A stretch of DNA of 64,000 nucleotides from Agarophyton chilense (Eukaryota > Rhodophyta > Florideophyceae > Gracilariales > Gracilariaceae), in assembly GCA_030374765.1 (NCBI GenBank), contig JARGXX010000092.1, positions 2,144,001-2,208,000 of the forward strand, read 5' to 3'. Position numbers and translations under genes: made by a program. The notes under the pieces were generated by a model. The model was given only the letters and a program-made list of their open reading frames with translations. It was not told the origin of the DNA and searched no databases. Within the stretch, counting starts at the first letter, position 1; the number at the start of each line of letters is the position of its first letter. This document shows, piece after piece, positions 11,307 through 57,055 of this stretch.

Positions 11307-11549
11307 TATCCTCCTACTTAGGTGACGAACACGCCGTCGACATGGCGGGGAGGCAATGTTCCAACCGGCATAAGAGGGAGCCGCGTAACGCGTCCAGCCA
11401 GCGACCACTCGACTGCCGAAGGCAGAGCTGCATCACCGAACTACAAACGCAACAACGCGGTAACCACTCCTCGAACTTCGAGCGCTCTTCCACACCGTAC
11501 GCCAACTTCCAGCGACCACATCCCGATACCTTGGCGACCAGCACTCCCG

Positions 11550-27217: not shown

Positions 27218-27423
27218 TGTGCAATACACGATTGCCACCTGGCACAATGCCGCCGGCGCTGCATACTAAACCTCACTCTTGCTCCACCCCGAGACACTGG
27301 GGACAGAGGAGCAAGAGGGGACCTTGTGCCCGTTCCACCTTCCTCGGTTCCACCGCGCGTTGCGAGTGCATACTAGACACCAGACCAACAGCCCTCCCGC
27401 TCTGCGTACGACTGCTTCCCATA
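27218..27423 (+). repeat. Copia 5' LTR
   Basis: 206 bp starting TGTGCAATACACG and ending CTTCCCATA, as fixed by the perfect ATAAT duplication. The 3' end TA instead of CA is unusual. It differs from the 3' LTR at only a handful of bases. Confidence 0.92.
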
Positions 27424-27531
27424 GTTATAAACCCAGCGGCAGGAGCTTTTATGTTTTTCAATCCGACAGACCCGCCAAAGTTTGATCCGACCAAGGATCT
27501 ACAAAAATGACACTGCAACGTTTGTCGATGG

Positions 27532-28776: not shown

Positions 28777-28790
28777 ATTCATGGGTTGGG

Positions 28791-30275
28791 GCGCCTTCTG
28801 ATGTGGTTAGTGGTACGAGAGATCCTAACCCCATCATTGACATTGGTTGTCCTCGTAGTGTGGGGGGCATCGAATCTGCGTCTGCACTATCAATCGCAAT
28901 GGGCATCTAATTTTACGTTAAAGACCTCGAGTGTGACCCCTTTTATCACGGTTTTGGTCCAGAATGTGCAAATCCGAAACTCGTATTTGGAATTTGGAGG
29001 TTGAAAATCAAAAGACTCAACGATGTGGAAGCAGACATTAAGTTCTACATTACGGAAGGCGACGGTCCTCTGCTACTGGGGAACGACATAGTGTAACGTT
29101 CGGACCTCATGGGTTCGGAAAACACGCTCGTAGTGCCCGTTTCGGTCGGAATCTCTCGAGACGATGCAGTTCTGTCAACGTACGTCCTAGGAGAAGAAAA
29201 TGACCTCCGAACACACTTATTCGTCGTTCTTGCGATAACAAAGTCGTTCAAATTCTTCTTCTCTTCTCATTCTTCCTTTCTCTCTAGGAATCCTAATCCG
29301 ATCGCCAAACTATCTGGAAAGGACGGCATGGATCAGACCAATGCGCGCCGCTTCGCCACAAAGCTTCACTGTCAGTCCCACCTCTCCACCAAGGACATGA
29401 AAAAGCTTTGCAGTCGAGGCGGGATAATAAATCGAACACTTGCTGGTGAGCTCCAACAGGCCTACAATTCTTGCACTTCATGCAAAAGGTCTGGCCGCCC
29501 ATTACATTCTCGAAATATATCACTCAAGAGGATACTGGGCGAGTTCAACGAGCACCTTCAAGTGGATTTCCTATTCATACGCGAGTTTGGAAACCTCCCC
29601 ATTCTGCATATGAAGGATGTATCAACTGGTCTCTCCGTTACTGTCTTGATGACTTCAAGGGATATGACTGATACCACTCGCATGATTGTCTTTCATTGGT
29701 TTGATGTCTTTGGGCATCCATCAAAATTATCAGGAGACCCAGAGGTCAATAACGACTCGATTCAGCGATTGTGTGCCGAGAATCAGATTTCATTCGAACC
29801 GCGGCCTGCTCGACGCCACAACAAAATTGGAAGCGTTGAATCGAGCAACGAGACAATCCGTACATTTGTCCAAACGCCCCTTCTCGACGAACCTCATCTG
29901 AGGGAAACTCGTCAAGTGTACCGCACGGACTTTGAGATCCTCTCCAAAACCACATTCCTGAAGAATGTGCTGTATGGTAATGAGTCAGTCAGCAGCTTCG
30001 AGCTTGTTCACGGCTACACTCCTTCTGTTTCTGGGTTACCCAAGCAGATGCTACCAGAGAAGCTCCTTGCTTCCTACCACGAACAAGTTTCCAGGCGTGC
30101 CGTACACACCTTACTTCGTACCAAGCCATCGTATCCTTTATCACAACACCTTCTGGCACCAACCACTCCGGTATATGTATTTAAGAGAGTTAGAAAACAT
30201 GGTGCCTGGTACAAGGCATTCGTGGTCACTACTACTGACCATATAGTATCGGTCTCTCCGAGCAAAAATCTCTAG
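28791..30275 (+). pseudogene. Copia protease and integrase region, broken
   Basis: The protease has IIDIGCPRSVGG near 28830, where DIG stands in place of the usual DTG/DSG, and ends with GPLLLGNDIV. In-frame TAA lie near 28910 and at about 29094. The integrase follows in the same frame: His/Cys finger (LHCQSH then CTSC), first Asp in LQVDFLF, second Asp in LSGDPE, and Glu in GSVESSN. It stops at 30273-30275 though similar sequence (GPKHQIAYEDIRLVPRDG) continues briefly. RT is in a different frame, so at least one frameshift separates them. Confidence 0.85.
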
Positions 30276-30379
30276 GGACCGAAGCATCAGATCGCCTACG
30301 AGGACATAAGGTTAGTCCCGCGTGATGGTTTGAAGTACACTTAGAACGCGGATAACTTGGTGAAGTGTAGGCTTAAGTT

Positions 30380-30610
30380 CGTTTTTCGAGACTCAGTCTT
30401 TATTCTTAAATTCTTTTGTAGTGCTCTAAAGAACTTCTACTTTTTTCTAGAAGCACAGCATTTCTTCTAAGATAGTTCTTAGAGTTTCTACAATAAATTT
30501 TCTATCGAAGCTTCTAGATGCTTGTACACAGTTCTAAGTCATAGAGGAGTTTCTAGTTGTTTCCTTAAGACCTTCTAGAGGTTTCTACAACACAGGTTCA
30601 TCCCTTCTAC
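30380..30610 (+). repeat. TTCTA-rich low-complexity tract inside copia pol
   Basis: An AT-rich stretch with about a dozen TTCTA/TTCTAGA-type motifs between the integrase and RT. It has no open frame. Some motifs resemble heat-shock elements (for example GAAGCTTCTAGAT). Confidence 0.6.
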
Positions 30611-30681
30611 AGGAACTGGACAAACAGGAGCTTGGATACACGTCCTTCCCAGACACTAACGCCCAAGAAGAACCGATACCA

Positions 30682-32589
30682 GTGCCTGAAGAAAGGAATG
30701 ATGCCGATCGTTCTTCTCTTCCACCCCTCCAAGATGAAGAAATCACAGACTTCCCTGTGCAGATCATAGAAGACCTTTTGAGTTTCGACCCAAACATATC
30801 GGACGAACCAAATTTGTGGTCTTTGCATCCGTTCTATTCATCCTTCTTCGCGTCGAAGGAAGACACGACGGCTGTGAACGCACCCTCAATGGATGTCGGG
30901 AACCCTCAACTCTGCAGAGATGTTGGCGACACCTCGCTTAGGTTCCCTACAATTGGCGAAAATCTATTGTCTTCGGAGCAAAGAATCCTCGAGCAGATCA
31001 AGAAGATCATTGGAGCCCAACCAGCCACAGAAGCTAAGCTACAGTTCGCCCCGCGATGGATAATCGACAAGGCCATCGAAGCAGAGAAGAGAAACTACTC
31101 TGAAGCCGAGGCATACAAGCCGATCTCCATCACAGGACTCCCGCGAAATTCAAATATCATATCCTCCCATCACTTCTTCGTGACGTAGTTCGATGGAGAG
31201 AATGGTAAGCTTAAGCTCAAGTGCCGTTTGGTACCACATGGAAATCGGGATTCTCAAAAGGATAACATTCGCTCTGACTCCTCTACGGCTCACTTCACCT
31301 GCATCAGACTTCTGCTTTCCCTCGCAACTTTACTGCACCTCACCCTTGGAAGCATTGACATCTCTAGAGCGTATCTGCAATCAGGCGACCTCAAACGAGA
31401 TATATACATGCGGCCTCCAAAGGGATGGACACAGTTCGTAGACGAAGTATGGAAGCTACTCAAGCCAGCATATGGCCTAGTAGAGTCCGGTCGTCTCTGG
31501 CAGCTATGCATCGAGGAATGGTTGTGCGACTACGGATTCTGTACTGTCCCTGGTATGCCACAGATGTTCATATTGTCGGACGACCATGCATGTATATCTC
31601 TACTCCTGGCCAAATTGGTGGACGATCTTCTCCTTGCCGTATCAAAGAGTGAGATGAACAACTTCTCCAAGGCTCTCTCATCTCGCTTCAAGGTTGGCAG
31701 AGCACTCTTTAAGAACGAGATTATCTTCAGCCGCCTTTGGATTTGGCAATATGAAGACTTCTCGATCGAGATCTCCATGGCAGAGTTTATGGAAAATCTC
31801 GCCCCCATTCCGATCTCGAGGGATGGGAGGAAGCAGTCCGAGGATCCATGCACCCAATAAGAAGTCCGAAATATCCATTCCCTTGCTGGAAAACTCAACT
31901 ACCTCGGCCATGGTGTGCTGCCTCAAGCCGCGTACGCTGCCAGCATCATGCAGCAGCTGGTCCTAGAGATGCGCGTTAGGCATCTTCTGCAGACAAACCA
32001 GATCCTCAACCTCGTCTTTAAGCTATGTCTGGTCGTGAAGAACATGGCTCCGAGATCCTCGATGGTATCGGATAACATGAACGCTTGCCACATAGTGACG
32101 TTCTTTGACGGCAGAACTGGAAAATCATCCTACGGTCAAACTGGCTACATCATTGGCATCTCCTTCTCCCAAGGTGAGAACGTTCCCTACCACATCTTCT
32201 ACTGGCAAAGCGCGAAGCAAGGACGCATATCCTTTAGTTCAATTGGTGCTGAAATTCTTGCGGCAGCAGAATCCGCAGACAGATCCATACTACTTAGGGA
32301 ATGCATGGAAGTTCTTGCATCGAATTTCGGTTCGCTCGTCCTTTACGTCGACTCATTTGGTTTGTACTCAAAGATCACTACCCTTCAAGAATGCCGAGAC
32401 TACCGATTGCGCCCCACCGTGTCGCGCCTCCGTGATTCCTTCGAAGCTGGAGACATATCCTCCATGCGTTGGATATCGGGAAGTCTGAACTTAGCCGACG
32501 CGTTATCAAAGGGCAATCATCATTCATTTACTCAATTGAACCAAGCTATGGTTCGAGGTATACTCAGCAAAGGTATCACATATACTATG
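30682..32589 (+). pseudogene. Copia reverse transcriptase and RNase H, cut by Gypsy-2
   Basis: One frame with in-frame TAG 31186-31188 and TAA 31858-31860. RT motifs are KCRLVPHGNRD, SIDISRAYLQSGD, LKPAYGLVESGRLW and the active site KLVDDLLLA, where LVDD replaces YVDD. RNase H follows, with Asp in TFFDGRTG, Glu in IGAEILAAAE, Asp in LYVDSFGLY, and NLADALSKG. Gypsy-2 enters at 32590. On its far side, after the duplicated CYATG, the frame continues in phase for eleven codons to TAA 43235-43237. Gypsy-2 therefore removed only the last residues of pol. Confidence 0.9.
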
Positions 32590-33305
32590 TGTAGTATCCG
32601 CTCTAACGGAGAGAGCAGAAACCTGCGACAGCGTTCGGACTGCCGATGGGTCGCTTGCGTCGAAGGAAAAAGGGTGGTAGAGCTACAACACCAGCGAGCT
32701 GGAAGTGGGGTGTAAGGCCACTACTCGCCAGCGAGGGTGCTCAGTGCAACTGTAAAACGTTGAGGGAACGTAGGTAAGAGACGGCTCGTGAAGTGGTTGG
32801 GGGCTGACTATCTATTTTAGCTCGTCCGGATCTCCGGTTAAGGAATCATAAGCGAGGAACAGAATAGTCATGATGCCCATGTTGTCTCCGTTACTTGGAG
32901 TCGGCGCTCACCTCTGGTACACTATATACTGTGTGCCAGGGTGAGTGCCCAAATAAATATATAAATAATACCCAGTGGTCAGCCACTTAGCCAAACCACT
33001 GTATGTTTATGTTCCCTAATGGACGTCTAGCTACAAAGGGTAGTAAAGCCCTCCACGTGGATTGCCACTACATGCGCCGTTGCCAATATGGCATTCGCCT
33101 AGGAAGGGTCGCAAATATGCGCGCGCCGTGGTAAGCCACTCGACCCATGACGCCACGTGTTCCACTAAGATATTGTGCCTCTAGGCATCCTATGCGGGAT
33201 ACCGTTTCATATCACAATGCTGATGGTAACACTCACTTATGAGTTCCAACCGCGACTTCGCGAAAAACCAACCTATCGGATTCCCCGACATAGTTGAATA
33301 CTACA
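32590..33305 (-). repeat. Gypsy-2 3' LTR
   Basis: 716 bp, TGTAGTATCC... ending AATACTACA. It contains about 50 bases (around 33085-33140, GCCAATATGGCATTCGCC) missing from the other copy. Confidence 0.93.
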
Positions 33306-33428
33306 TACCCCCATCGTTAAGCGCGAACCCTGGGGGACGCAAGAAGCGTTTGTACGCAGTCGGACCGGTGTTCAGGGTACTCATCGTCATCACGAATTCC
33401 TCACCGCTCTTCAGCTCGATCTCTCGCG

Positions 33429-35069
33429 ATGGATCCGAACGCCGGGTCCAACTTGTTTCAGCCCTTCTCTGTTGATGTGCCTTCTGGGGCTCCGTCCAAC
33501 ACTGCTGGTTCTGTGTCGCAGTCCATACCGTTCGTTCCCCACACCGTACACCGGATTCCGGTCGGTACCGCTACCTCAGCCAACCGTGGCTCCAATGCCG
33601 AACGCGGCTTACGTCGCCTCTGCGGGTGTGATTCGAGCTCCTTCTCGTCGTGCTCAGAGGAGCTACCCGCACCTCCCGACAACGTTGAACTTTTCGCGCA
33701 AGCGCCCTGGTTTGATCCAGTTGCTATCCGCGATGACTCGTTGATACAACAGTATGTACACGGTGGGTACTTCCCTGACGGTATTCCGGAACACGCGATT
33801 TATAGCGACGACTGGGCGAGCCATATTGCTTTGCCAGACAATGCGATTGCGCGATATTCAATGGAACCCTTGTCCGAAGCCCGTACGCGGTTCACCAAGC
33901 TGATTTACCAGCGTCTACACCGATTCATCAGTACGGTTCTCCTTCCGCAGGACTGGGAACTAGATACCTGGAAAGCCCGTACTGACGGTGAAGGTTACTC
34001 GTATATCGAGACACTCGTTGAATTCGATGTTAGCGGTTGGCGCGGTGTGCGCGGTGTGCGTGATGCAGCTCTCTGCTTTCATCAACCTCTTCTCCGTGCG
34101 GAGTTCCGCTTCCTTCGAAAGCGTGACATTCCCTATTGGGATTATCCCCGTTGGGAACGTCGTACTCGATCACGTTTGGGCTATTTGGTGCCGTATCAAA
34201 TGATCGAGTTTGACTGCATCCGGCGGAAGGCGCACTTCGGGCGCTACATCGGTATTCTGGAGCATTGGGCTGCGATCGAGAGTCCTCGTGGTTGCCCTGT
34301 GGAGCTCCGACCGGCGATCTCCTACATCGGGTCCGCGTTGGTTAAAGACCCGTTCTCGGGATATTGGACGGTGGTTTATACCGAGTTTATCGCCAAGATG
34401 GCCGTTTTCCTCCTGTGGGATGCTTATGATACATTTAGAATTTTGTACATGTCTCCCACAGCGCGAAAGTATGCGAGAGAACTCGATCTTTCCCTTGTCC
34501 TGGGATCCCGTGCGAACCATGCCGACTTCCTCCATCTTGTGGATTTGATCGACAGCGTCGATTGGTCTCGAGTGCCAGCTGATCAATCCGCTCGCTAAAC
34601 CGGTGCAAGAAACTACGACCATTCTCCTGGACGAACAGCAAGTGCTGGAGATTTCGTTTGGTACGACCCCTGGATGCGCCAGTTGATCACCTCCGAGCAG
34701 GCTCGCTTTCTTCGGGAGAACCCGCGTGACATGCCACCGAACCAGCTTACTGGATACTTGTACGATGCTACTCCATCCGAGAACGGAGAGGAACCGTATG
34801 AGGAAGCGCCGGGACCTGAGGCTGAACTCGGCTACGAGGACGAGCCAGAGCTGGCAGGCGTAGCGACTTCCGTCGATCAATCCGCAGCGGCGGGAGTTGC
34901 TCAAGAGTACGTTCATAGGTTTAACCAACAACCTAGTGCAGTGCCGGTCGAAGATCCAGGCTTGGATCCGCTGAGGCAGTTCCTCTTAGATGCGGGCTTT
35001 CCCGTGGACCAAGTTGAGGGTGATCGCGCACAGCTTCTTGCGAACCTGCGTGCTCGCACGTCTCTTTGA
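33429..35069 (+). pseudogene. Antisense ORF of Gypsy-2, family unknown, one in-frame stop
   Basis: About 546 codons from ATG 33429, on the strand opposite to pol, between pol and the 3' LTR. One TAA (34596-34598) interrupts it, and clear homology to the Gypsy-1 antisense ORF continues directly after, in the same frame (AGDFVWYDPW against AGDFIFFNPW). Other shared blocks are QAPWFDP, LLRAEFRFLRK, RSRLGYLVPYQ, HFGRYIGIL, VELRPAISYIGSAL, LLWDAYDTFR, DLIDSVDW and the C-terminal LRQFLLDAGF / LLANLRA. The N-terminus is Ser/Pro-rich, the middle Trp/Tyr/Arg-rich, the C-terminal third acidic. No known domain recognised. It converges on pol, 331 bases apart. Confidence 0.78.
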
Positions 35070-35162
35070 TAATCCTAGAAAAGACCCCTATTCAACACCC
35101 TTGCGGAGATATCTTGATACCAATAAACTCCGGTGACTTCGTGTCTTCACGTTCCCTTCTTA

Positions 35163-35300
35163 TCTTCTAGTCTTCATCTCTCTTATCGCTTCTCGAGTGC
35201 TTAACTTCTTCTTCTCGCTTCTCGAGTTCTTCAATCCTTCTTCTCGCTTCTCGAGTTCTTCAATCCTTCCTCTCGTTTCTCGAGTTTGTCCTAGGTGATA
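35163..35300 (+). repeat. 29-bp tandem repeat between pol and antisense ORF of Gypsy-2
   Basis: Four copies with period 29 (CTCGAG at 35192, 35221, 35250 and 35279) of a pyrimidine-rich unit containing TTCTCGCTTCTCGAGTTCTT. A weaker copy lies near 35350. It sits in the gap between the convergent genes. Confidence 0.8.
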
Positions 35301-35400
35301 ATCAGTAAATGTCATTTGCTTGCGTGTCTTCACGTTTCCTGTTCATGATTTCTCGTTTTCTTCTCGCCTTTCGAGTTTTTACTACCTTTGTAGCCCATAC

Positions 35401-38400
35401 TTAGAAATGGGATGTGCCCATGAGCCCGACTATCGAGGACTCGATCTCCCTGGGGTATGGTAATCGCATGCGTCGATGATATCGCACGAGTTGCGAACAG
35501 GGGATATGAGCTATAGGTTCCCACTTATCCACTTCTGGAGGAAAACCGTACCAACGGACTCGATACAGTAATTATCTAGTATCTTCATGCTCGCCATGTT
35601 CACTTATGCGATCCATAACATATTCCTGGGCGTTTCCCAATGCTTTCGCTGTTGGCGCGAGACTCCTGTTAACAGGTTTGAAATGCCTTAGGGCTGACCC
35701 AAGCGTCTCTGTGATAGCAGTCTCCGCGTCGCTAAGCGTTCGCTCGTCGACTAACTGTCGTTTTGACCGCAGGGGCAGTGTACTCATTCCTTGAGAACCT
35801 TTCTCAGATAAAGAGCTATCCTGTTTTCCAGGTTCCATAGAAGCTTACTTCTTGCTACTTCTCAATTCCATTCGTGGATGAACTTCCTTCGGTTTATCCG
35901 ATTGTGACCGCTGTTCGGTGGATGATGGTGCTTGCACCACGACAGGAAACGATACCTCTTCTTCTTCCTGCCCACGAGGGATGGGAGCAGATATCGGCGG
36001 AACAGCGAGTGGCGCTTCACCTGACGGTTCAGCCTGAAGCGGCAACGGCGCGCTTTCGCGTGAACTCGTTTCCAAGTCCTTGGGGCCGAATTCCAAAATA
36101 TCTCTCCTGCTTTCAGGTTCCATTTCTGTACTTACGGGTGTGCGCTTGCCACGGGGCAAATCCCGATATTTCGGAAGCTGTCCGTGATTTGCGTACGCAA
36201 CCGCCGGCGGTGGAAGATCAGGAGCATTCTCCTCCGCTCGAGCCATTTGTGGCGGTTCACTCTCCCCAGAGTCACTTGGGCTTTTACCTTGACGTTCCGT
36301 CGCACTTGCCTCCTTACTTCTACCAGATACCTGGACTTCCACTTGCGGGTCAGGCGCGACTTCAACGCGATCGCTCGATACACGTTCAACGTCCTCACCT
36401 GTCTTGATGACCACTGTGTCTTGATCAAGGTACACCACTTTGAAGGGTCCAGCCGCTATCGGCAACAACTTATGACGAGATTCTTCCTGTTTGTCCGGGC
36501 TTTCAACTCGCACGAAGACGTGACCCCCTACTCGGATTGCCGGATTTCCTCTTCGCCTTCTAGCGTCATAGTTTCGCTTATAGCGAGCTTGCGTCTTTGA
36601 TAACTCCTTAGCGGCTTCTTCCGCTCTGGCCTTCAGGTCATTCCTCCATTTCATATGGTACTTAGCCGGGGTCGGCGCGTCCAATTCTGTCTCGTCGTCG
36701 AGTGCAACCGGTAAAGCCGGAGGGTTACGTGAGAGCACGAGGTCGAACGGTGCCGTCTTTGTAGAGGTATGCACTTGCGTATTGTACGCGTAGCACAGAG
36801 TATCTGTGAACATGTCCCATTCTTTCGGGTGGTCCGCGATGTAGTGTCGTAATGCTGCTATCAGCGTGCGGTTGAAACGCTCCACCTGACCGTTGCATTG
36901 CGGATGATAGGTCGTGGTAAACACGTTTCGAATGCCTATAATGCGGCAAACATTCTGAAAGAACTTCGCAACGAATTGCTTCCCATTATCTGATAACAGA
37001 ACTTGTGGTGGTCCGTATATAAATACCCAGTGTTTGATAAACGCCTGTGCGACTACGGTTGCGGTTATCCGCTTCAGCGGCACAGTCCGCACTAGCCTCG
37101 AGAAGCGGTCGGTGATTACCAATAGGTAGCGATAACCTCGCCTTGAGCGAATCAATTCCCCTAGGATGTCGATACTGACGTATTGTAAAGGCGCTTTGGC
37201 CTGGAATAACGTCATCGGTTTCCGCTTCCTGTAAAGCTTCACGCGATTCTTCGCACATGTTGTACACAACCTCACTGTAGCATGGCAGTCCATTGCCAAA
37301 GTAGGCCAGTAAAAATCTCTTCTTAGAGTCATGAACAACTTCGTTCCTCCTGGATGACCAGACAGCCTGCTGTAGTGTGCCAGATGGAGTACTCGACTCT
37401 TCAAGACGTGTGGAATCACGATTTTATCTTGTTTTTCGACATGTCTTAACAGTATTCCTCGTGAATCGAGAGAAAAGGGGAGCTCCTCCCCCCCGTTAAG
37501 ACGAGAGCGTATCGACGCACAAAACGTATCGGCGTGTTGCTCATTGAGGAGCTCAGTGCACGAGAATCGCCCGAGTTGAACTGAAGGGTCAGTGTCTGCT
37601 AATGCAAGTAACGGTTCTGCATCCGAATAATCATCAAGAGTCTCTTGTTCCTCTTCTTCAAAAGATGGTGAATGGGTCTCCATGTAGAAGCAAGGTATCT
37701 CTTCATCGATTTCGCCTTGGGTTTCGCCCAGTGTTTTGAGTCGCGATAGCGCGTCAGCTTGGACATTGGCCAATCCCTTCTTATACTTCACTTCGAAATC
37801 GAATTCAGAAAGGCGTAAGCGCCATCGTGTGAGACGACCAGACGGGTCTGTAATGGACAGTAACCATCGTAGAGACGAATGATCCGTGTTGACGGTAAAA
37901 CGTTCTCCTTGGAGATACGGTGGCAATGTGGTTAGAGCCCAAACGACTGCAAGGCATTCCTTTTCTGAAACTGAATACTTCTTCTCAGCTGCGTTCAGCG
38001 ATCTTGACCAGCAACCAAAGGGTTTGCGTTCACCATCAGGATGTGTTTGAAAAAGGGCACACCCTACTTGGTACTCGCTAGAGTCGGTATCCACTGAGTA
38101 TGGCAGGTTGTGGATGGGCAGCGCCAAGTCTGGGGCTGTAATAATCTTTGTCTTCAGCGTGTCGAACGATTCCACTTCAGCTTATCTGAATTGTTCCAGC
38201 TGTACTGGTAGTCCTTTACGCAGCTTTGCGTTGAGCGGTGCCGCTATATGCGAGTATCGCGGCACGAATCGTCGGTAGACGTTGCACAAGCCGAGGAAAG
38301 AACGCAATTGCTTCTGTGTCGACGGAGGTTGTACTTCGCGGAGAGCCGCTGTTTCGGCCTCTTGAATGGCAAGCTGTCCCGGCTTGATCACATGTCCTAC

Positions 38401-40158
38401 GTACCGGACGGTGCCAGCGAACCATTCGCGTTTCTTGAACTTCAAGGTGATACCTGCGCTTTGTAGTGCTTTGAGGATCTCCTCGACATGCCGGAAATGG
38501 CTTTCCACATCCTCGGAAAAGATGATCACATCGTCCAAAATAGACTAAACAAGTCTACCACTTGTATCTTGAGAGCAAGATGTCCAGAGTACGCTGGAAA
38601 GTAGCCGGTGCATTCGTTAAGCCAAAGGGCATCCTTTTGAAACGGTAGAGACCGGCGTGACACGCAAATGCAGTTTTATCTTGGTCTTCTTCCGCTACAG
38701 GCACCTGCCAATAGCCAGAGTTGGCTTCCAACGTGGTGAACACGTTCCCTTCTCCTAAGCTGTCAATACATTCGTCCATTCGAGACAACGGGTATGTATC
38801 CCGAACTGTAACTGCGTTCAGTTTTCGATAATCGATACAGAATCGTAAAGAACCATCAGGTTTTGGAACCAGCACCACTGGTGAGGCCCAAGCAGATTGA
38901 GCTGCTTCGATTACTCCTTCGAGATGGGTCGTGACCCTGGGACCAAATCAATGTGGTGTTCCGTAGCGGAGATCTCTCCTAGTTTTCCACTCCAAATGGA
39001 TGTATACTTCTTCAGCATAGACCTGATCTTCGTTCTGTAGTGTTTCGACACATGTGCTAAGTCTAGCTCATCGACCAGGCTCTCTGGATCCTTTGCCGTT
39101 TGCAATTGATCTCCAGACGGAGCTTGCAGTTCTTTGACGGTGTCACCGACATGGGTTAATCCCAATACTTCCGCAGTAGAAATATGAGAAGGGACCACCA
39201 CTGTAGGATGAAGCAAAGCTGTTGCAACAACCTGATTTTTCTGTATCTGATAATCGTTATCGGTGAAGTTACTCACTAGTATCCAAAAGGGGCTACCAGG
39301 ATCAACCTGAACAATGCCGTTAGCGACTAGCAATCCACGGGATTCGTACATCCGAGTATTCGGTTGAATTACCACGAGTCCGTGTCGTTCTGTTCTTACT
39401 TGAACCCAAGTTTGGGTTTGCGCCTTCAGCATGGCACTCTTCGCTACTCGAATCCTCGGCGAGACACGTCCTCGGGATTTCCCGTATTCCATAGATGGTG
39501 AAAGTGGAGGTGCTTCGGGGCAACGACGCATTGGCTTGCGAACAATTGGTACCATTGATCCATCATCTAGTTCCACTAGTTTTTTTCGCGAGCGAATGGC
39601 TTCGACAAACTTGTCGCAATAATCACATCCCAGTACCACTGGTGCAGCTAACGTCTTACAGACGATGAAGTCGACTAGGACTACAAAGCGTCCCAAACGC
39701 ACCACGAGTCGAACTGTTCCCAGTGTCTTCACAGCATTTTTGTTCGCATCCCGGATGTCCAGTAAAGGACCGTATCGAATACGTTCTAAGTCAGCAGGAG
39801 CGAGCGGAGCGAGCTCGGATTCCTGTATAAAGTTCGGACCAGCACCTGTGTCCAGGATAGTCAATCGACGAGATAACAGATTCCTGTCAGAGCCAATGTC
39901 GGCATAGACCTTATAGTTTTTTTTAGACACTACCATGAGGTAACTTTCCCGTCTTGACGGGCGAGTATAGCGTCTCCAAGGACGATGTAACTCACAGTCA
40001 AACTGTACTCGCTTTCCGTCCGGCGGATTGATTCCGTACGGCGGAAATTTGGGAGGCCTCAAGAGAATCTTGGGCTTCCAAGCGCGGGAGCAGGGAGGCG
40101 AGCTCTCCCTGGTCAGCACTACGGGATCGACTAGTGCCGACCCCCTAGGGGCTCCCTC
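35401..40158 (-). pseudogene. Gypsy-2 pol with chromodomain, broken
   Basis: Protease LDTGAGPNF (near 39860), RT, RNase H (VDTDSSEY, SEKECLAVVWAL, NTDHSSLRW), integrase with HHCC finger (HYSRLSGH, CTTC) and DDE in YVSIDIL, LSDNGKQF and NGQVERFN, then a C-terminal chromodomain (RVRWYGFPPEVDKWEP). Breaks are a deletion of about 70 bases with a frameshift near 38900 at the RT start, TAG 38555-38557, one extra base near 38540 inside the YLDD active site, TAA 38182-38184, TAA 35845-35847, and TAA 35572-35574 inside the chromodomain. The frame after the last stop reaches TAA 35401-35403. Confidence 0.9.
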
Positions 40159-40160
40159 AC

Positions 40161-42200
40161 TTAGTTTTCCGGTTGCACCGGCTTATTCGCCTCAAAGGCG
40201 CCTATTCCTACCGGGGTTCCGGGTTGTAACACTTCAGCATTCTGAGCAACCGGCTTGTCCGACCGGCGCATTGGTGTCTGAGAAAACCAAGTTTTGGCTT
40301 TCCAATACATGCCCCCCGGTACGCGGCTCCTTTCCTCTTTTGAGAGTGCTTCATAATTCGTCATGATACGACTCAGATCCTTTGCAGGAAGCGTGCATTC
40401 TGCACTCAAATGGTGTTTTACATAACATGAATAACATATCAAACCGTCACGACGGTTGGTCAACATAGGTTGTGAACGGTATGTCGTGCGGGTATCCATC
40501 CATTCGTGTTTCCTGTTCTTAAAACCTCCTTGTGGTGGCACCGTGTAGGGACGGTACATAGGGCGACGGCCCTCCATAGCCATTAGGGCTTCCTCGTCCT
40601 GAGACTCCGAGTGTGGGAGATCCACTGTAGGTACAGAAGAGTCCGTATATTCCATTAAATGGACCGCTTCCTCATGGGAGTCACTCCCTTTGGGTTCCAA
40701 CGACGAATCTCGTGAGTGCACTGGAGATTCCAGGTGTAGCAGTTTGCTGCGCTGATTAACTCTGGCGGAGATCTTCTCCTTACACATTGAGGTTCCGAAA
40801 GCCACTGAACAACGGGGGATACCACGCGCTCTGGCTGCGTCTCCTTCAGCTTTCGCAAACTGAATTAACTCCAAAAAGGAGACTCTTCCATGCTTCTCTC
40901 GATATCGGGCTACCAACGACTTGATGCTCGGGTCCAGCCCGTCGATGTCCAGGGTAATCTTGTCCTCCGTCGAGTGGAAGTTTCCACAGCGGACTGAAGC
41001 TTTGTTAAGCCTTGAGCTGTACTCAGCTTCGCCCTCCTCCGGCTTTTGGGTCACATCCCTTAGGTCCAAGATCGCCTGACGTATCGCGTTTGAAGTCGCG
41101 TAACTGCGCAGCAAATACTGCACCGCCTCTGGCCATGAGGTAACGCCGCCTTCATCGGCTGTCAATGATCCGCAAACGGAACGATATTGCTCTAAAGCAA
41201 AACCCTTCAAAAAGTGTGGTAAAGACACAAATGCCTGTGGTTCACTCATCTCTAGAGTGTCTGTTTCGGCAGCGAATCGAGTGAGAAACTCGATAACGAG
41301 AATGGGGGTTTTCCCATTAAACGTTAAATCATTAAGGCCGATCTTCAATCGTTTGATGTGATCCTTCACCTTCGCGGTTTCGCGTCCTCAGCGCTTCTTG
41401 CTCTTCACCTTCAGACGGTAGTACCTGTAATTTAGGACCTTCCCATAAAGCGGATTCGTGCACGGGAGCACCTTCAATCCTCTGTACGGTGAGCCTTTTT
41501 TTCACATTAACCACGAAGACGTGTTCTTCTTCCGAGATCGGGCCCTTCGATGACCATCATCACTGTCGTCGTCATCTGACGTATCTGAATCATCAGAATC
41601 ATCAGTACTGGAACTGAAACCCTCCGTACTTGACGATTCATCACTCGAATCACGTGCGGACTTCCGCTTCTTACGTCGTGAATTCGACTTCTTCGAACGA
41701 GCTTCCTTCAAAGGAGCTCCTTCCTCTTCCAGCATGACTGGTTTAGCAGCAGTCTGCGCATGAACCGCCGCCTCCAGGCGTTCTAAAAGAGGGTTAACTC
41801 GAGTGAGGACTTCCTCTACATCCACGGTTTAGCCGGGTAGCGCATCGGGCGTATTCCCGTACCTCTCCAGTAGATGGTTCAAATCCTCACGTAATGTTTT
41901 CACTGATGCAGAGACCTGCTTCCCATCGTCTTGACGAACGAGTGCATGATTCGCACTGCGTAATTGTTCGACATCAGCGATAAGAGCAACGATCTGCGAT
42001 TCCAACGCAACCATGCGCACACGCGAAGCGCTTGACTCAGACTTGAGACGACGCACTTCCCTGCGCAAATCATCCTCTTTTTCAGGTCCGACGACCTCAG
42101 GGTCAACTACGGCTTCTGTGGTGGGCGTGACTGCCGCTGCCACAGGGGCCGGTACATCCGAGAGATCTCGTTCATCATTCACCGAGCGTGAGCGCGACAT
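40161..42200 (-). pseudogene. Gypsy-2 gag, broken
   Basis: A single frame from ATG 42200 interrupted by TAA 41829-41831, TGA 41502-41504 and TGA near 41388. It has a coiled-coil N-terminal part, a Ser/Asp-rich acidic run, the gag core (WPEAVQYLLRSYAT) near 41100, and a complete CCHC knuckle, CYSCYVKHHLSAEC, near 40430. The gag core is clearly homologous to that of Gypsy-1. Pol follows in the -1 frame. Confidence 0.85.
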
Positions 42201-42509
42201 CGCTTGACGATACAGCCGCTCTCAAGCTTCAACAGATGAGGCGAGCCTCGGTTTCGGGGGTGTTCCCACAGGACCGGGGCGATCAGTACTCGACGGGCTT
42301 CGGGTCTTCGGCATCCTCGACCAAACCTGAGTCCAGGTGCGAACCAAATGGTGTCTTCGACTTCTCGACCACGTGTTCAACCACGATGAATTCCGCAATT
42401 GCCGGAGGTGGTTCGATAAACAATAACTGTAGTGATTCCACTTCTTCCAAGTATCGATATCGATTCCACGTTCCAGGAACGAATTGTTCAGTGCAGCTGA
42501 CCACAGTGG

Positions 42510-42527
42510 TTCTAAGTCTGGAGACCA
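42510..42527 (-). promoter_or_regulatory. Primer-binding-site candidate of Gypsy-2
   Basis: Reads TGGTCTCCAGACTTAGAA on the element's strand, two bases inside the 5' LTR. It differs by one base from the motif in Gypsy-1 and Gypsy-3. Confidence 0.6.
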
Positions 42528-42529
42528 CT

Positions 42530-43196
42530 TGTAGTATCCGCTCTAACGGAGAGAGAAGACATTTGCAACAGCGTTCGGACTGCCGATGGGTCGCTTGCGG
42601 CGAAAGAAAAGGGGTGGTAGAGCTACAACACCAGCGAGCTGGAAGTGGGGTGTAAGGCCACTACTCGCCATCGAGGGTGAACAGTGCAACTGTAAAACGT
42701 TGATGGAAGGTAGGTACGAGACGGCTCGTGAAGTGGTTGGGGGCTGACTATCTATTATAGCTCGTCCGGATCTCCGGTTAAGGATTCCTAAGCGAGGAAC
42801 AGAATAGTCATGATGCCCATGTTGTCTCCTCTACTTGGAGTCGGCGCTTACCCCTGGTGCACTATATACTGTGTGCCAGGGTGAGTGCCCAAATAAATAT
42901 ATAAATAATACCCAGTGGTCAGCCACTTAGCCAGACCACTGTATGGGTACGGTTCCTAATGGACGTCCAGCTACAAAGGGTAGTAAAACCTGACACGTGG
43001 ATCGCCACTACATGCGTCGTTGCAAGCCACTCCACTCGTGATACCACGTGTCCCAACACTGTACCCTGCCTCCTGGCATCCTACGCGGTGTGCCGTTTCG
43101 TATCACAACTTTGATGACATCACTCACTTATGAGTTCCAACGGCGACTTCGCGAAAAATCATCCTATCGGATTCCCCGACATAATAGAATACTACA
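42530..43196 (-). repeat. Gypsy-2 5' LTR
   Basis: 667-bp partner of 32590-33305 with an internal deletion, lying upstream of gag on the minus strand. Confidence 0.93.
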
Positions 43197-43257
43197 CCAT
43201 GGGCCACCATCTTGGGGCATGGAACCCTGAGGCTTAAGATCAAATATGGCAAAGACT

Positions 43258-44618
43258 TCAAACCCTGGTTGAAGAACCTTCTTGGTGACGACTTTTCTTC
43301 CCGCGGCGAGCGCGTTTCTCATCTTTCCTTCCTGGGAGCAAGCGCATTACGCGACAGTCCGCAATATGACTGAAAGAACGGTCTGACCCAACACAGGACT
43401 CGAGAGCAACCTGAGTGAGATCCATGTGATACTTTTCTACTGAATCAATAATCATGTTGCGCTCCCCATCTATCAAATCGCATACAGGTATCCGTCAATC
43501 GCCTGAAAACTGGCAAGGAAGACCTTCCCACTATCGCCGAAGTTATCCAAATCGAAGTTCTCTTCTCGGCGTCCAGTCCCATCGCGAAGGTAATCGAGGC
43601 TAATAACACTGGTCTTTTCCCGAACAAACCTTTGCATATCCTTGAGGTCCCAAAACTTCCCTCGGACCTCCCTTCGCGCCTTCCGGTTCCAATATTCAAG
43701 CTCAAGAATATCACCAAACCCAAGACCTGCAACGGCGTTCAAGTACATCTCATTATCGTCTGCGTTCTTCCTAACGCGATCGACGAGATACGCCCAACAC
43801 TCAGCAGCATTCTCGGACCCAATGGTGAGAGCTAACGCATTACTTAAAGAAGCTTGAAGGCACATAAACTTCTCGTCGCGAAACTGCACAGACGTATGAC
43901 GGAGATGGAAACTTCGGACGCCCGGCGATGGCATCCGCGCTTCGGGTTGCAGCACGGTGAGCCTTTGACCTGGCTTTGCGCTGCAAGTAACTAGAATGCT
44001 ATTGATCGCTTCATACCGGTCCTTACCTCCCCAATGGAATGTTCCCTCTGCTGCTTCGCCATCATACGTCACCCTACTTCTCGACGCACCACCTCCAACT
44101 GCCTGACTGTACCCGATTCGGAAAGTATGCATATCGATGTGGCACACTACGTTAGTGCCATGCTCCAGAGCATAGAACTGGTCCTTAATCTCACCACGAC
44201 CTCCTCTCGACAACCATACCTTCTCGATCATCCAATCGTTATACTCAATACTGGTATCGGGATCGTCGTCGTCATCCAAAGCATCTGTAAGACCCAATTG
44301 GAACAGCATCAACCCTCCTAATTGCATGCCACGATACTGCCGGATAAAATGAGGTATCCTGCGCCCGAGCAGAATAATGCCTTCGTTTTCGCTAGATCGC
44401 ACGAGGTTATTGCTGCCCTCGAAAGTGATTGCGTAGATTTTTCTCACGCCGCGCTGCGGTTTGGAACAGAGAAGCTTGACAATATTCTTGTTACGGTATT
44501 GGTCAAGATGTGTCTCGCTTGTAATTCTTGCCGCTTTGCCTGCAAGCTGGCGCCGTGGGGTTTTTCCGCCAACAGATTTGCGAGCCGTCTGCTCAGTGCG
44601 TGCCATCGATGGATTCAC
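43258..44618 (-). pseudogene. Copia antisense ORF: histone H3-tail-like N-terminus plus unknown protein
   Basis: From ATG 44618 (or ATG 44606, which starts the tail) the protein begins MARTEQTARKSVGGKTPRR and keeps the H3 pattern to about residue 26. Lys9, Ser10, Lys14 and Lys23 equivalents are kept, Lys4 is Glu and Lys27 is Ile. The histone fold does not follow. Instead come about 420 residues I do not recognise, with a DDDDD run, a Cys in KFMCLQASLSNALAL, a late FQAIDGYLYAI and, after one frameshift at about 43475, DGERNMIIDS...LESCVG and a basic tail. The Cys, the DG-x-YAI and the IID segments resemble the layout of a papain-fold cysteine protease, with Tyr at the expected His. It ends 20 bases from the end of copia pol in the empty site, so it belongs to the copia element. 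Confidence 0.7.
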
Positions 44619-44926
44619 CTGACCAGAAGTCGCCCACGCTGTCCGGAGAGAGGTGACACGTCGAGTTCCGCGTCAAGGTTTCACACCTTTAGATGGAAGC
44701 AGTGACGTCGCAAATCTGGCGTTTTGGCGCGTGCGCGGTTCCCAAAAAGAAATAGAGCGGTATTTGCAAAACGCTGAAGGCACACAGGGGAGATCTTCTT
44801 GGAAATAACTGGCCCGCGAGGAAGATGCGCCATAAAATATCGCGCTTAGGGTCAGAAAGTGAGTTGCTGAGCATTTGGCCACACTCCAAAAAATCAAATT
44901 TTATTGTACCGCGCCAAGGCTGGGGG

Positions 44927-45132
44927 TGTGCAATACACGATTGCCACCTGGCACAATGCCGCCGGCGCTGCATACTAAACCTCACTCTTGCTCCACCCCG
45001 AGATACTGGGGACAGAGGAGCAAGAGGGGACCTTGTGCCCCTTCCACCTTCCTCGGTTCCACCGCGGGTTGCGAGTGCATGCTAGACACCAGACCAACAG
45101 CCCTCCCGCTCTGCGTACGACTGCTTCCCATA
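44927..45132 (+). repeat. Copia 3' LTR
   Basis: 206-bp partner of 27218-27423, followed by the ATAAT duplication at 45133-45137. Confidence 0.92.
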
Positions 45133-52400: not shown

Positions 52401-53736
52401 GAGTTTGTTGCGATAGACCTTCTATGACCATTTCCCAAGACCAAGAACGGGTATCAGCACATTCTAGTGATCACCGACAGGTTCTCGAAGCTCACGAGAG
52501 CGGTACCCTTAAAGGAGACGAAGTCAACCACGCTGGCGATCGCGTTCTTCAATAATTGGGTCTACCCGTATGGCGCACCACTGTATCTACTTACCGATAA
52601 TGGTTCAAACTTGGCATCGAAGTTCTTCGAAGCAGTCTGTAACCTCTTGGGTATCATGCACTATTTCACCACTGCCTACCACCCGCAGACGAACGGACAG
52701 GTCGAGCGCTTTAACCACACATTGGTATCAAGGCTACGACACTATATGGAAGAGCACCAAACTGGGTAGGATGAGCTGGTGCAACCGCTCACCTACTCCT
52801 ATAACCTTCAGGTACACGGGTCAACGCAGACCACTCCCTTTGATTTGATTCTTTCGCGACACCCTCCAGGTATTGTAGTGCAGGGAGATCATACCACCAG
52901 CACTGCAGCTGGCGCACTGACCTCTGACTAGGTCAAGCGAAGTACCCTTGTGAGGTTGAGGAGGTCTCTCAACCATGGAGAGAGCCGCCTCACTGTAGAC
53001 CAGAAGCGGTACAAGGCCGACTACGACCGTAGGGTAACCAAAGTGGTCTCCGTATCTTCGGGACAATACGTGTACATAGACAACCCACCTACAGTTAAAA
53101 GAACACGACCGGGTGATGAAGCAGACGATGAAGCTATTGACAGAGATGTCAATTCGAAGCTTCTACCCAAATAAGTGGGACCTTATAAGGTATTAAAGGC
53201 ATCAGACCACACCGTTACAGTTGACCAAAGAGGGAATACCGAATACGATATCAATTGACCGTATTAAGGTAGCACCTGAAATGGTTCAACATCGCATTGA
53301 GGTAGGCACCTCAGCCCGAGAGCCCAGAGCGGTAGCTCTGCGCACTCGATCCTCGGAGGACCCCACCCCAATTGAGGTAAATGATGAACTACAACGGAAT
53401 GATCCGGGGGACAACCCTCTAACAGGGACGGAAATGGAACTTCACACGGTAATAGCGGGAGCTCCCGACCCGGCTCCCACACACCAAGCTCCAAACTCGG
53501 AACACATGAACCCTCGAGGTAGCGCTCCCCCGAAAGATCAGGACCAAACCTCAGAGGTATTTCCCGTTGACCGTCTGGTGGGCCACACGCGAAGCTACAA
53601 TGGTCTGAAGTACACCGTCAGGTGGTACGGCTGGGGCCCAGAAGGGGACACCCTCGAACCCCCAGCCGCAATACCTCCACACTTCCGTATCAGGTATTGG
53701 CGCCGTCGCAAGGAGCCAATGCCTGCAGACGGCTAA
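49446..53736 (+). pseudogene. Gypsy-3 pol with chromodomain, broken
   Basis: Protease LDTGAGPNVL (near 49620), RT with LVYIDDVI (near 51030), RNase H (GTDAPHAQ, PEKECKAVVW, RTDHDALRW, NIADAMSRL), integrase with HHCC finger (HYPRLSGH, CESC) and DDE in FVAIDLL, LTDNGSNLA and NGQVERFN, and a chromodomain at the C-terminus (VRWYGWGPEGD). Breaks are frameshifts near 49900, 51930 and 53250, and in-frame stops at 51013, 51523, 51716, 52059, 52365, 52424, 52767, 52929 and 53172 (approximate first bases). It is clearly dead. Confidence 0.88.
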
Positions 53737-53896: not shown

Positions 53897-56363
53897 TTAA
53901 GAAGAACCTGTCGGTTTAGGAGCAGTGGGATCAGGAGGACCTGTGTTATTGCCTACCCATGGAGGAAAACTTGCAGAAATGATAGGAGCCATCGACCTAG
54001 GAGGTAGCGAAGGAGCGGTAGCCCCGCCAATGGGGAGAGGAGTCGAAACCAAAAGAGGATTAACGAAAGGAACCGCCGGAGCGGGTTGCAAAACCGCAGG
54101 GTTCAAGTTAGCACCTAGAAGAGGATCCGTCAAAGGATCAGATGGCGCAGCAGCAGAGACGCTTGCCAGATTGGCAATCTGATGGGTGGCCAGTTGGTAC
54201 ATGTCCAACTGGAACTGATTCCGGAACTCACCAAGTTGGTTCAGCGCCTTCATGTACTGCGCATGGCGCGGCAGCAAACCTTCAAGGAGCGTTAATGCAG
54301 CAACCACGGAGGTAGGCCCAGCCCTCTGAAAGTTGGTGACGCAAGCCTGGCAAATTAGAGGCAGCAAACCGACCACGGCCGGAGAATCCATCATAGGTTG
54401 AGGCGGAGGACGAGCAATACCCGCCAAAAGAGGTCGAACCAAACCAGCAACCCGCGAGGAGCTCGGTTGAGTAGGAGTCACACCCTTAGGGATAGGAGAC
54501 TTACGACCATGAGGTACCGGCTCTGACGGAAAGGGACCAGCATAAGGACCAACTGGTGTCTTTACAGTACCGTGATAAGGTTCGGGGCTCGAGGAAGCTC
54601 CATAAAGAGGAGGCTCCGCGGGATAATATTGGGTGTGGCGAGGCACAATCTCCCAAGTTGCGGGATCGCAAGCCTCCCAACCTTGATGGGAATCCCAATG
54701 GTAATTCTTGTTCTGCTCGAGATACGAGTCCAAATCTTTCAAGGTATAACCGGTCCCCTCCACGATGTTCTCGTAACCAAATCGGGAAATATCCTGGGCA
54801 ACCCTCGGAGGTATGAAGAAGATGCGACGTACAGGTTGAACACCATCTCGGTATATGTCAGAGTCGGGATTGCGACAATCCCAATCGATACCGTAACGGG
54901 CGGCCTCCAAAGCCAGGATGGCAACCAACACGCTCCACTCCAAGAGGGCAATCGACCAAATGAGGTAATACCGCTATAGGTTCCGGGAAATTTGACTCCT
55001 GAAGTACGCCGAAACCGGCGGAGTGAGCACGCTCAGCGATAACGGAACGCCATAGGACTCCCACCACTCTGGTTGAAGCACGTACCAATCGCGTCCGCCC
55101 TTCGTAGGATGTGAGAAGGTCTCGACGTTATGAAACATATGCATAACGCGAGTGTAAGAGTTGCGAGTGCGAACGCGACTCTCCGTCGCTGCATTCTCGC
55201 CCCACCTACTACGGTCAGCCCAATTGATAAAGGTGCAAGGCCGATTCAGGGAAACCAAGTCAGGTGAAACCGGAAGGTAAGCCTCCGGAATAGACGGGTA
55301 CTGGCACACTTGCACCACCAATCGACGGTAATAATCCAGCTCCGGTTAGATGCGCACATACGGCAAGTCGCTCGGATATATCGGCGGGATGAAATACCTC
55401 AAAGGTGTATGACGCTGCCGATTCTGGTAACATTCCAGTTGACCCTGACGAGTTTGAGACTCTTTGGTCCCGTTTCTTCAAAAGCAAGGGAACGGAGGGA
55501 AGGCGCTCGCAGTCCCAACGGGACAAACCCAAGTAGGTATCCAATTGTGGTCTGGTAAGAGCTGCCGGCAATGACGAATTGCCCACCGCCACAGGCCAAT
55601 CGTGCTTGAAAATGTCATTGTTTGTCACCTGGTCGAAGGTAATACCAAAAGGTCCATACTGACTCGTCGTCCGGTTCGCCGCACCGAACGCGAGATTGTG
55701 AGCCCAATTGGTTTGTGTTGTCGGAGAAAGTCCACCACTGCGTTGGTATGGGTCAGCCGGAGTCCCAGGGGAGAACTGAGTCGAAGGGACAGGCATGCTG
55801 CAAACCCCAATGTTGGTAGGCGTTCGCGAAGTCGAGCGAGTCACCTTCTTGGTAATACCACCGCGTCCACGGCCACGCGATGGGCCGCTACCTGACATGG
55901 TTTGGAAGGCCGTAGGTAGACCCAACGAACTAGGTGATGACTCCACCTCCACCGCCGCGGTGAACAACAGCGGGTATCCATCCTTCTGAAGTGGCGCCTC
56001 CTCGGTCTGTTTTGAGGAAACGACCAACGTATCCAACCTTTCCGGCGGTACCGACATTGACCTTTCAGGTGCAACAGTTGCCAGCGTACGGTCGTCAGTG
56101 GTTCCAGACCTTTGAGGTATCGTGGAACAGGACCAATCCGAACTTAAAGGCATAACTGCAGGGGTATCAATACCCTCGGAATCGCCGACTTCTTGAACCT
56201 CAATGGTGACCGGCATCTCACATCTCTCGAGCGCTGGCGCTGCTTGTGGAGACAACCCACCCCTTCGAGGTAGCGGTGACGAATCCACGATGGGGCGCGG
56301 GGTGCACCGACGTTGCACCGAAGGGGTTCGAACGCGTGCGCGGAGGCGGTGCGATCCTGTCAT
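53897..56363 (-). pseudogene. Antisense ORF of Gypsy-3, about 820 codons, broken
   Basis: Starts at ATG 56363 near the 3' LTR and converges on pol. The N-terminal part is Ser/Pro/Thr-rich; the middle is Trp/Tyr/Arg-rich; the C-terminal half (from about 54700) is Pro/Ala-rich with a leucine-rich helical segment. Breaks are a frameshift near 55475, TAA near 55348 and TAG 54974-54976; the frame resumes after each. Weak similarity to the Gypsy-1/2 antisense proteins is visible in the middle (WWESYGVPLSLSVLTPPVSAY; then WSIALLEWSVLVAILALEAA against a WTVVYTEF...LLWDAYD block). This relationship is by eye only. No known domain recognised. Confidence 0.6.
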
Positions 56364-57055
56364 CGCCTTGAGGGTAGACCGGAATGCAAAACCGGAAAAA
56401 CGTCGCGCAATTACCGACGGGGCCGCTCAACACCAATAAGGTCTCACAACCGGAAGCGTCCACCACGGACCCAGGCCAACAACTCAATGGTTATATCGAC
56501 GCAGGCTCAGGCCCCACAGGCGCCACGGGTCAATCCTTAAAAGGTAGACGAAACCTGAAAGGTCGAGGAGCCAGGAAACCTTCAGGGAAAGCCGGACAGC
56601 ACGATTAACGTCGCGACGCCGCCATTTAAGGGCAGCGATACCTGAAGGGTTGTCGAGCCGTGGGAACGACCGGGCGGGACGGCGCGCGCAAGGATCTAGG
56701 ATAAAATTGAAGTTTGAGTAACCGGGAAGGGTGAGATCCCAACTTGGTTAGACAGAAGGCTATGAGGAAGCAGAATCGCAAGCAAGCAGGGCCACTACCG
56801 AAAAGGTGTCCACGAGCGCGCTAGTTACACTGCGTCGCCTTCATGACAGTCGCTACCTGAATGGTTCTCGCTCAATTCGTGCGCCGACGTCGTCGCGCGC
56901 CCTCCCCAACCGATACTGGCGCCGAGTTCTGAACCTCAAGGGATCGCGCGTCGCGCACGGACACCACTCCGATGCCCGCGCCGCTGTTGCCCGCTACAAC
57001 TCTATGGTTTGATGGAAGGAGACACGGGGCGTGCCTCACGGGCAGGAAGGGGGTC

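Follow-up and report, generated by a model that had tools for sequence, protein, structure and literature searches.

A family of Ty1/copia retrotransposons in the red alga Agarophyton chilense carries an antisense open reading frame (ORF) whose protein begins with a near copy of the N-terminal tail of histone H3, and this tail was kept as protein sequence while the elements multiplied. The presence of a selected copy of the H3 tail suggests that the element plays on the host gene-silencing machinery. Our preferred reading, held with slightly less than even confidence, is that the antisense accessory protein uses the H3-tail mimic to engage host readers or enzymes of the H3 tail and to counter silencing, by a binding and an anti-silencing effect that we infer. 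The facts that support this reading are the element context of the ORF, the family-wide presence of the tail, past selection on both tail and body, a homologue in a Gypsy family, and conserved Cys, Asn, His and Asp residues.

The window, which is the whole stretch of 64,000 nucleotides that was analysed, contains a Ty1/copia element at positions 27218-45132, split by a nested Gypsy element that was inserted where pol ends on one side and the antisense ORF ends on the other (Table 1). The assignment to Ty1/copia follows from a reverse transcriptase of the copia type (RVT_2) and from long terminal repeats (LTRs) of 206 bases, identical at 202 of 206 positions (98%), with ATAAT as a candidate target-site duplication, the exact LTR end being uncertain by a few bases. 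The earlier description of the ORF as antisense to a copia element, which came from a sequence-only reading of this DNA, is supported by RVT_2 on the plus strand (31189-31860) and by the flanking direct repeats with 98% identity. The ORF, which is open from stop to stop over 43473-44672 on the minus strand and starts 320 bases from the 3' LTR, shares its features with the antisense accessory ORFs termed aORF-3R, being located between pol and the 3' LTR, opposite to gag-pol, and conserved across the family. The span 43258-44618 given for the protein in the sequence-only reading does contain the ORF and is slightly wider than it, with the part below 43476 encoding the C-terminus of the protein in another frame.

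Table 1. Positions in the window of the copia element, the nested Gypsy element and the parts of the antisense ORF
Feature	Position	Strand	Evidence or remark
5' LTR of copia element	27218..27423	+	direct repeat of 44927-45132; candidate TSD ATAAT immediately upstream
Copia integrase region of pol, weak match	29097..30275	+	Pfam rve E 0.007, under curated cut-off
Copia reverse transcriptase	31189..31860	+	Pfam RVT_2 E 3e-21
Nested Gypsy element	32588..43189	-	direct repeats 32590-33305 / 42530-43196; candidate duplication TACTA; RNase H and integrase on minus strand
C-terminal part of antisense protein	43270..43476	-	out of frame after one-base break; 40% identity to residues 341-403 of Gypsy homologue
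Antisense accessory ORF, 377 aa as it stands	43476..44606	-	first in-frame Met at 44606
Codon at conserved His, Tyr in window copy	43482..43484	-	His 18/22, Tyr 2/22 rows having site
Codon of conserved Cys 249, peptidase-like domain	43860..43862	-	Cys in 21/23 rows having site
H3-tail-like N-terminus, residues 1-27	44526..44606	-	phmmer E 1e-5 to H3; internal-branch omega 0.50
3' LTR of copia element	44927..45132	+	direct repeat of 27218-27423

The LTRs of the nested Gypsy element (32588-33305 and 42530-43189) are 90% identical (594/661, plus gaps), compared with 98% for those of the surrounding copia element. This order is unexpected, because the inner, later insertion should have diverged less than the copia element, and gene conversion or chimeric LTRs could be its cause. 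The three Gypsy elements of the window have long ORFs opposite pol at 11322-13057 (+), 33321-35069 (+) and 53897-56426 (-), which by eye are partly alike mutually and unlike the H3-tail ORF, and chromodomain matches lie at 13426-14760 (above the cut-off) and 53197-53736 (under the cut-off). A ferrochelatase gene is also located within the window. Phycobilisome linker domains gave 13 matches, on contigs C39, C88, C10, C68, C16, C1 and C80, and together with the ferrochelatase gene they point to a red algal host.

Residues 1-27 of the antisense protein are MARTEQTARKSVGGKTPRRQLAGKAAR. Both the residue-by-residue comparison, in which H3 is matched by 21 of the 26 residues from 2 to 27, and by 21 of the 27 from 2 to 28, with no gap, and the phmmer search against PDB chains, in which the best E value was 1e-5, agreed with the earlier claim that the ORF opens with a near copy of the H3 tail. 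The search returned 131 sequences at E values up to 1, and the best 60 of these 131 were all H3, H3 peptides, variants or chimeras, including one Cse4 chain, matched over about residues 1-30, so that the H3-like N-terminal sequence is beyond chance. The window copy retains the equivalents of K9, S10, K14 and K23, as had been noted for Lys9-Ser10 and Lys14, and has Glu in place of K4. Since there is no in-frame Met upstream of 44606, the H3 sequence forms the extreme N-terminus, and with the initiator Met directly before the ARTKQTARKS segment an H3-like free N-terminus is possible. This arrangement is consistent with the suggestion of the sequence-only reading that the tail could act as a mimic toward H3-tail readers or modifying enzymes. 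Many H3-tail readers expect the H3 sequence at the very N-terminus. The protein continues without a histone fold, as the sequence-only reading had stated: the ORF protein matched no Pfam family, histone included, and none of the 13 histone-fold matches in the genome fell within the window.

The window copy is not the best example of the family. It is damaged by a private K4E substitution, a Tyr at a conserved His and a C-terminal frame break, the last of which, a one-base break after residue 376, was found in this copy only among the 22 compared at that site, two other copies having length differences elsewhere near it. A programmed frameshift was considered and rejected, since the break is private to the window copy and the apparent stop after residue 376 in nearly all copies was an artefact of reading them through the columns of the window copy; the omega value of 0.32 (p 8e-5) for the stretch past residue 376 concerns the normal frame of the family. 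Among the copia copies that span the whole query, that of the window is alone in having no internal stop, yet it is frame-broken at the C-terminus, and a search for intact members of the family, which had been proposed with the sequence-only reading, revealed no intact full-length copia copy.

Searches of the body of the protein against Pfam, NCBIfam and PDB gave nothing at the curated cut-offs besides the H3 tail. In the PDB profile searches of the body only H3-type proteins appeared among the best 60 of 129 matches, or unrelated weak matches at E values of 0.5 or higher, and Pfam matches below the threshold, for example one to the Ser-rich stretch of L075, were disregarded. Other antisense ORFs of LTR type (L073-L079) contain the C-terminal domain as well, with identities of about 30-46% over the matched pieces, and some of them, such as L074, lie next to what by eye resembles copia RNase H on the opposite strand. 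The conserved residues of the domain are a Cys, an Asn seven residues later (in the window ORF and in P0001, the Gypsy protein described below), and then a His and an Asp, which are both invariant in the eight sequences aligned. Cys 249 of the window ORF aligned with a Cys of the other families except for L079, which has Tyr, the L074 piece not covering the site; within the copia family the Cys was found in 21 of 23, the His in 18 of 22 and the Asp in 21 of 22 rows having the site. The order of Cys, His and Asp resembles, by motif only, that of a papain-like peptidase, and what we take to be a possible likeness to the Josephin motif was also considered. Ulp1 has a different order of catalytic residues. 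The C-terminus of the protein is basic, which would suit a nuclear protein. As a separate observation, the Cys/His/Asp domain of L073-L079, which represent several more LTR-type families, came without any obvious H3-like N-terminus in the parts that were examined.

In a Gypsy family (L063-L066) an antisense ORF lies next to the integrase, and its protein of 424 residues, P0001, aligned with the window ORF from residue 1, with 77 of 335 residues identical (23%, E 5e-17) and the first 35 residues gapless, so that the N-terminus and the body belong together in both families. The N-terminus of P0001, MAVTRQRVRAQRTRRVPRSHVRGLAMRVS, agrees with H3 at 9 of 28 residues without any shift of register (p 0.0002 by shuffling at fixed register), and the K9 position and most of the mimic are lost; in the diverged Gypsy copies L080 and L082, VTKQ stands in place of the RTKQ of H3. 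The mimic is thus strong in copia and degenerate in Gypsy. An extended reading that would join the two families, possible in our estimation and rather unlikely, is that LTR elements of two superfamilies carry an antisense "H3-tailed cysteine peptidase", in which an anciently captured mimic would deliver a peptidase-like or deubiquitinase-like domain to H3-tail-binding silencing complexes and disable them. Uninterrupted Gypsy antisense ORFs were found in two copies, at C92 and C4. A search of IMG/VR found no relative of the window ORF protein or of P0001.

Five copies of the Gypsy antisense ORF (C96:53278-53964, C88, C77, C100 and C71, with L072 as the copy read) are without about residues 130-322. 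The two flanks of the deletion read through as a single open frame of 276 aa, with 95-98% identity to the complete ORF, and this is a multiplied form that retains the N-terminus and the C-terminus.

The whole ORF matched 110 pieces in the genome (an assembly of 79.8 Mb in 135 contigs), and the first 30 residues alone matched 38 places at E values up to 10, which were three host H3 genes and 35 others. Thirty-four of these 35 places coincide with whole-ORF matches. The sole tail place without such a match, C128:816892 (L100), was considered as a separate fusion and rejected, there being no ORF longer than 139 aa in the surrounding 3.2 kb, and the upstream sequence resembling the LTR and spacer of the family by eye; this tail was taken, by the same by-eye judgement, for that of a truncated family copy. 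For the comparison of copies, 36 were examined, all having the N-terminal region. The exclusions were L050-L053, which are nearly identical to L054; L091, from that group as well; L093, which occupies the place of L019; additional loci of copies that were already represented; and L020, which is without the N-terminus. Only part of the whole-ORF match places entered this sample, and it favours tail-bearing copies because most of them were obtained via the tail search. In L050-L054 the copia ORF region is present in five almost identical copies, on C14, C81, C82 (two copies) and C106. At least one of these (C106:2292) is near a contig start, and they may have arisen when chromosome ends were duplicated.

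At least 13 of the 26 H3 residues from 2 to 27 were retained in 33 of the 36 copies, so the tail is not found in this one copy only, which was the result that the sequence-only reading had said would point to chance insertion of an H3 gene fragment. Three copies fell below 13 residues: part of the tail is deleted in L006, L016 could not be aligned in this region, and L090 has diverged. At least eight of the ten residues ARTKQTARKS were retained in 26/36 copies and all ten in 7/36. The best kept residues were A1 (32/36), R2 (28/36), T3 (29/36), K4 (32/36), Q5 (32/36), R8 (29/35), K9 (28/35), S10 (27/35), Q19 (30/36), A21 (28/36) and K23 (32/36), with K14 (23/35), R17 (19/35) and G13 (17/35) less kept. 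Four positions were lost, namely T11 (retained in 3/35), K18 (0/36), T22 (0/36) and K27 (0/35, with Ile in 23). Glu at position 4 was found in the window copy alone.

H3 tails carry import signals, and the tail might therefore be only a nuclear import sequence or a general basic nucleic-acid-binding sequence, in which selection would keep charge and not the mark-bearing residues. We judge this explanation unlikely. It would agree with the very basic character of the tail, with the frequency of charge-keeping swaps (Arg for K18 in 26/36 copies, Lys for R17 in 8/35 and Lys for R26 in 7/36), with the basic C-terminus, and with the Gypsy relatives, which retain a basic N-terminus after the loss of K9; it does not agree with the retention of the uncharged T3, Q5 and A21 at the frequencies given above, nor with the finding that Arg replaced Lys only once each at K4 (of 36), K9 (of 35) and K23 (of 36), and the basic C-terminus could already serve import.

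Whether the tail is under selection in the copia family was a check proposed with the sequence-only reading. Retroelement copies decay largely neutrally after insertion, and therefore the terminal branches of the tree provide a built-in control, while the internal branches record what the spreading elements kept. Omega was estimated by a simple method, from parsimony counts on a FastTree tree with a midpoint root and with the substitution spectrum of the neighbouring spacer, for a set of 27 sequences and for an N-terminal set of 37 sequences, the two sets overlapping. On the internal branches of the 27-sequence set, tail codons 1-27 had an omega of 0.50 (28 non-synonymous and 20 synonymous changes, p 0.014); codons 2-18 by themselves had 0.62 (p 0.12, not significant), the body had 0.34-0.41 (p 2e-7 to 5e-10) and the spacer 0.97-1.32. 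On the terminal branches of the same set, tail and body had omega values of 0.82-1.05, although these branches were not wholly neutral, as indicated by the last body stretch (0.82, p 0.012) and the C-terminal piece (0.67, p 0.003).

The N-terminal set of 37 sequences gave a similar result for the internal branches, with omega values of 0.50 for the tail (N41:S31, p 0.0035), 0.61 for codons 31-119 (p 3e-5) and 0.92-1.79 for the spacer, and a value of 0.85 (p 0.11) for the terminal branches of the tail. Sites of the tail equal to H3 had an internal-branch omega of 0.38 (28:27, p 0.0004) and sites differing from H3 one of 0.89 (17:8, p 0.47); the contrast between them was not significant (Fisher p 0.22) and is in part circular, since sites that evolve fast move away from H3. 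The comparison of internal with terminal branches gave p 0.052 for the tail and p 0.013 for the H3-identical positions. The tail value of 0.50 on internal branches beside a neutral spacer, significant in both of the overlapping sets, argues that the tail was selected as protein sequence while the elements spread, and since no intact copia copy was seen, the selection on tail and body is past.

These values also bear on the explanation that a captured H3 fragment served as a passive N-terminus which drifted along with a body under selection. The loss of T11, K18, T22 and K27 in most copies, the lack of significant constraint on codons 2-18 alone and the non-significant contrast between identical and different sites would all be consistent with it, and the internal-branch omega of the whole tail (p 0.014 and 0.0035 in the two overlapping sets) beside the neutral spacer stands against it; we consider a passive tail quite unlikely.

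According to our preferred reading, in which the accessory protein counters silencing, the product would most likely be nuclear, consisting of a mimic of H3 residues 1-27, a middle and C-terminal domain resembling papain-like peptidases, and a basic C-terminal tail. Once the initiator Met is cleaved off, the protein would begin with Ala1-Arg2-Thr3-Lys4 and onward as in H3, and because of this N-terminus the host readers, writers and erasers of H3-tail marks would bind the protein as a pseudo-substrate or ligand. In the most likely use, the tail would recruit the peptidase-like domain to a host complex active in silencing or demethylation, or would occupy that complex, and its engagement would keep the element transcribed. 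The steps that we infer here are expression, the free N-terminus, the nuclear place, the peptidase activity, the binding partner and the anti-silencing effect. Profile searches of the host genome gave 86 matches to SET domains (about 70 of one repeated kind), six to SWIRM domains, and 150 scored chromodomain matches of 1935 candidates, some of these in the Gypsy elements of the window, and the respective proteins could in principle be available as partners. A Pre-SET profile search of the genome gave no match, its control being likewise silent.

The approximately 70 SET-domain matches of one kind are weak and located in long ORFs (up to 1141 aa), several of them near contig starts (for example C10:2496, C19:1546, C89:4456 and C121:4529). 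In two parts of such ORFs (L101, 3-2279, plus strand; L102, 1784-4000, minus strand) an N6/N4 DNA methylase domain (Pfam E 1e-16 and 2e-18) is joined to SET (E 8e-6 and 4e-5), and this appears to be a repeated fusion of DNA methylase and SET, partly near contig ends.

The abundance of chromodomains in the genome, including those in the Gypsy elements of the window, also bears on a different use of the tail, in which the K9 equivalent would be methylated and bound by HP1-like or chromodomain proteins, so that the product or the integration complex would be tethered to heterochromatin, for targeting or for restraint of copy number. The QTARKS context of K9 is largely kept, as such tethering would lead one to expect, and yet the antisense product is not part of gag-pol and the Gypsy relative is without the K9 position; we regard tethering as quite unlikely.

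The three host H3 genes (L068, L069 and L070) have the canonical tail. At sites with the same residue, the codons of the element agreed with those of the three genes at frequencies of 0.33, 0.40 and 0.27, compared with 0.31, 0.31 and 0.32 expected from the element's own codon use, so that L069 is clearly above, L068 barely above and L070 below the expectation, the sites not being independent. Since the host H3 genes share only 12-15 of 27 codons with one another and the agreement is near the expected level, the codons cannot identify the source. A recent capture from a host H3 gene was rejected because of the same near-expected agreement, which implies that capture from the host lineage, if any, was old. 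The earlier suggestion that a piece of a host H3 gene had been captured thus stands in part: an old origin of the tail from a host H3 gene is plausible, and H3-like residues in some diverged copies (A15 in 11/35 copies, T11 in 3/35) would fit an H3 origin with later drift, while the codon-by-codon alignment revealed no recent source. A similarity that arose by chance or convergence and has no functional connection to H3, for which one could cite that basic N-termini are common, is barely credible in view of the 21 of 27 ungapped residues from residue 2, the E value of 1e-5 with H3-type proteins in all of the best 60 of 131 PDB matches, and these further H3 residues in diverged copies.

Among histone mimics, the SNAG domains are N-terminal, short and hardly alike H3 in sequence, influenza NS1 is a viral mimic, and EZHIP is a host protein that mimics the K27M region. 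The gene described here is filed as an antisense accessory ORF of LTR retrotransposons, which is a known kind, with the H3-tail mimic as a new variety. In plant LTR retrotransposons such as Grande, RIRE2 and Retand, the aORF-3R are additional antisense ORFs situated after pol and before the 3' LTR; they are conserved through a family, some of their products are nuclear, and their function was described as unresolved in a 2020 review (PMC7264820). The algal ORF is like them in its place and strand within the element and in its conservation through the family (PMC7264820), and differs from them in its H3 tail, its Cys/His/Asp domain and its red-algal carrier; the words histone, chromatin and protease have no occurrence in the main text of that review. 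Among the best matches in open-licence PubMed Central, searched by titles and abstract openings, no histone-tail mimic encoded by a transposable element was described.

Transposon accessory proteins that counter silencing are represented by VANC and the Ulp1-bearing KIU proteins of Vandal MULEs (PMC13317346; PMC10398659, PMC5735166). The algal protein, likewise a transposon accessory protein, has a peptidase-like domain that recalls the Ulp1 domain of KIU (PMC13317346), but the carriers of VANC and KIU are DNA transposons and the part of that source at hand mentions no H3 tail (PMC13317346), whereas the algal carrier is an LTR retroelement. EZHIP, described as an "oncohistone mimic", inhibits PRC2 (PMC12713659); the algal tail is like EZHIP in being a histone mimic, and unlike it in that K27 is lost (0/35). 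The SNAG domains of Snail1 and GFI1 are H3-tail mimics that recruit LSD1 (PMC12612597). The algal tail is, like SNAG, a peptide that mimics the H3 tail (PMC12612597), and differs from it in having 27 residues that nearly copy H3 and in being carried by a retroelement protein. Viral histone mimics include motifs of the ARKS type, and like them the algal protein is a parasite protein with an H3-like motif that would be directed toward host chromatin control; the viral motifs consist of a few residues, whereas the algal tail is a 27-residue N-terminal tail in a retroelement (PMC10208167).

No descent is claimed for any of these likenesses. By analogy, the gene product would most likely have worked like the SNAG domains or the viral histone mimics, with an H3-like N-terminus offered to host H3-binding proteins. 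The family-wide, selected H3-tail mimic provides a direct hypothesis for one antisense accessory ORF, and if it is true, the residues that were kept (K4, R8, K9, S10 and K23) and those given up (T11, K18, T22 and K27) would tell which host contacts matter, and retroelements have arrived at the strategy that SNAG repressors and certain viruses use, in their case with a 27-residue mimic.
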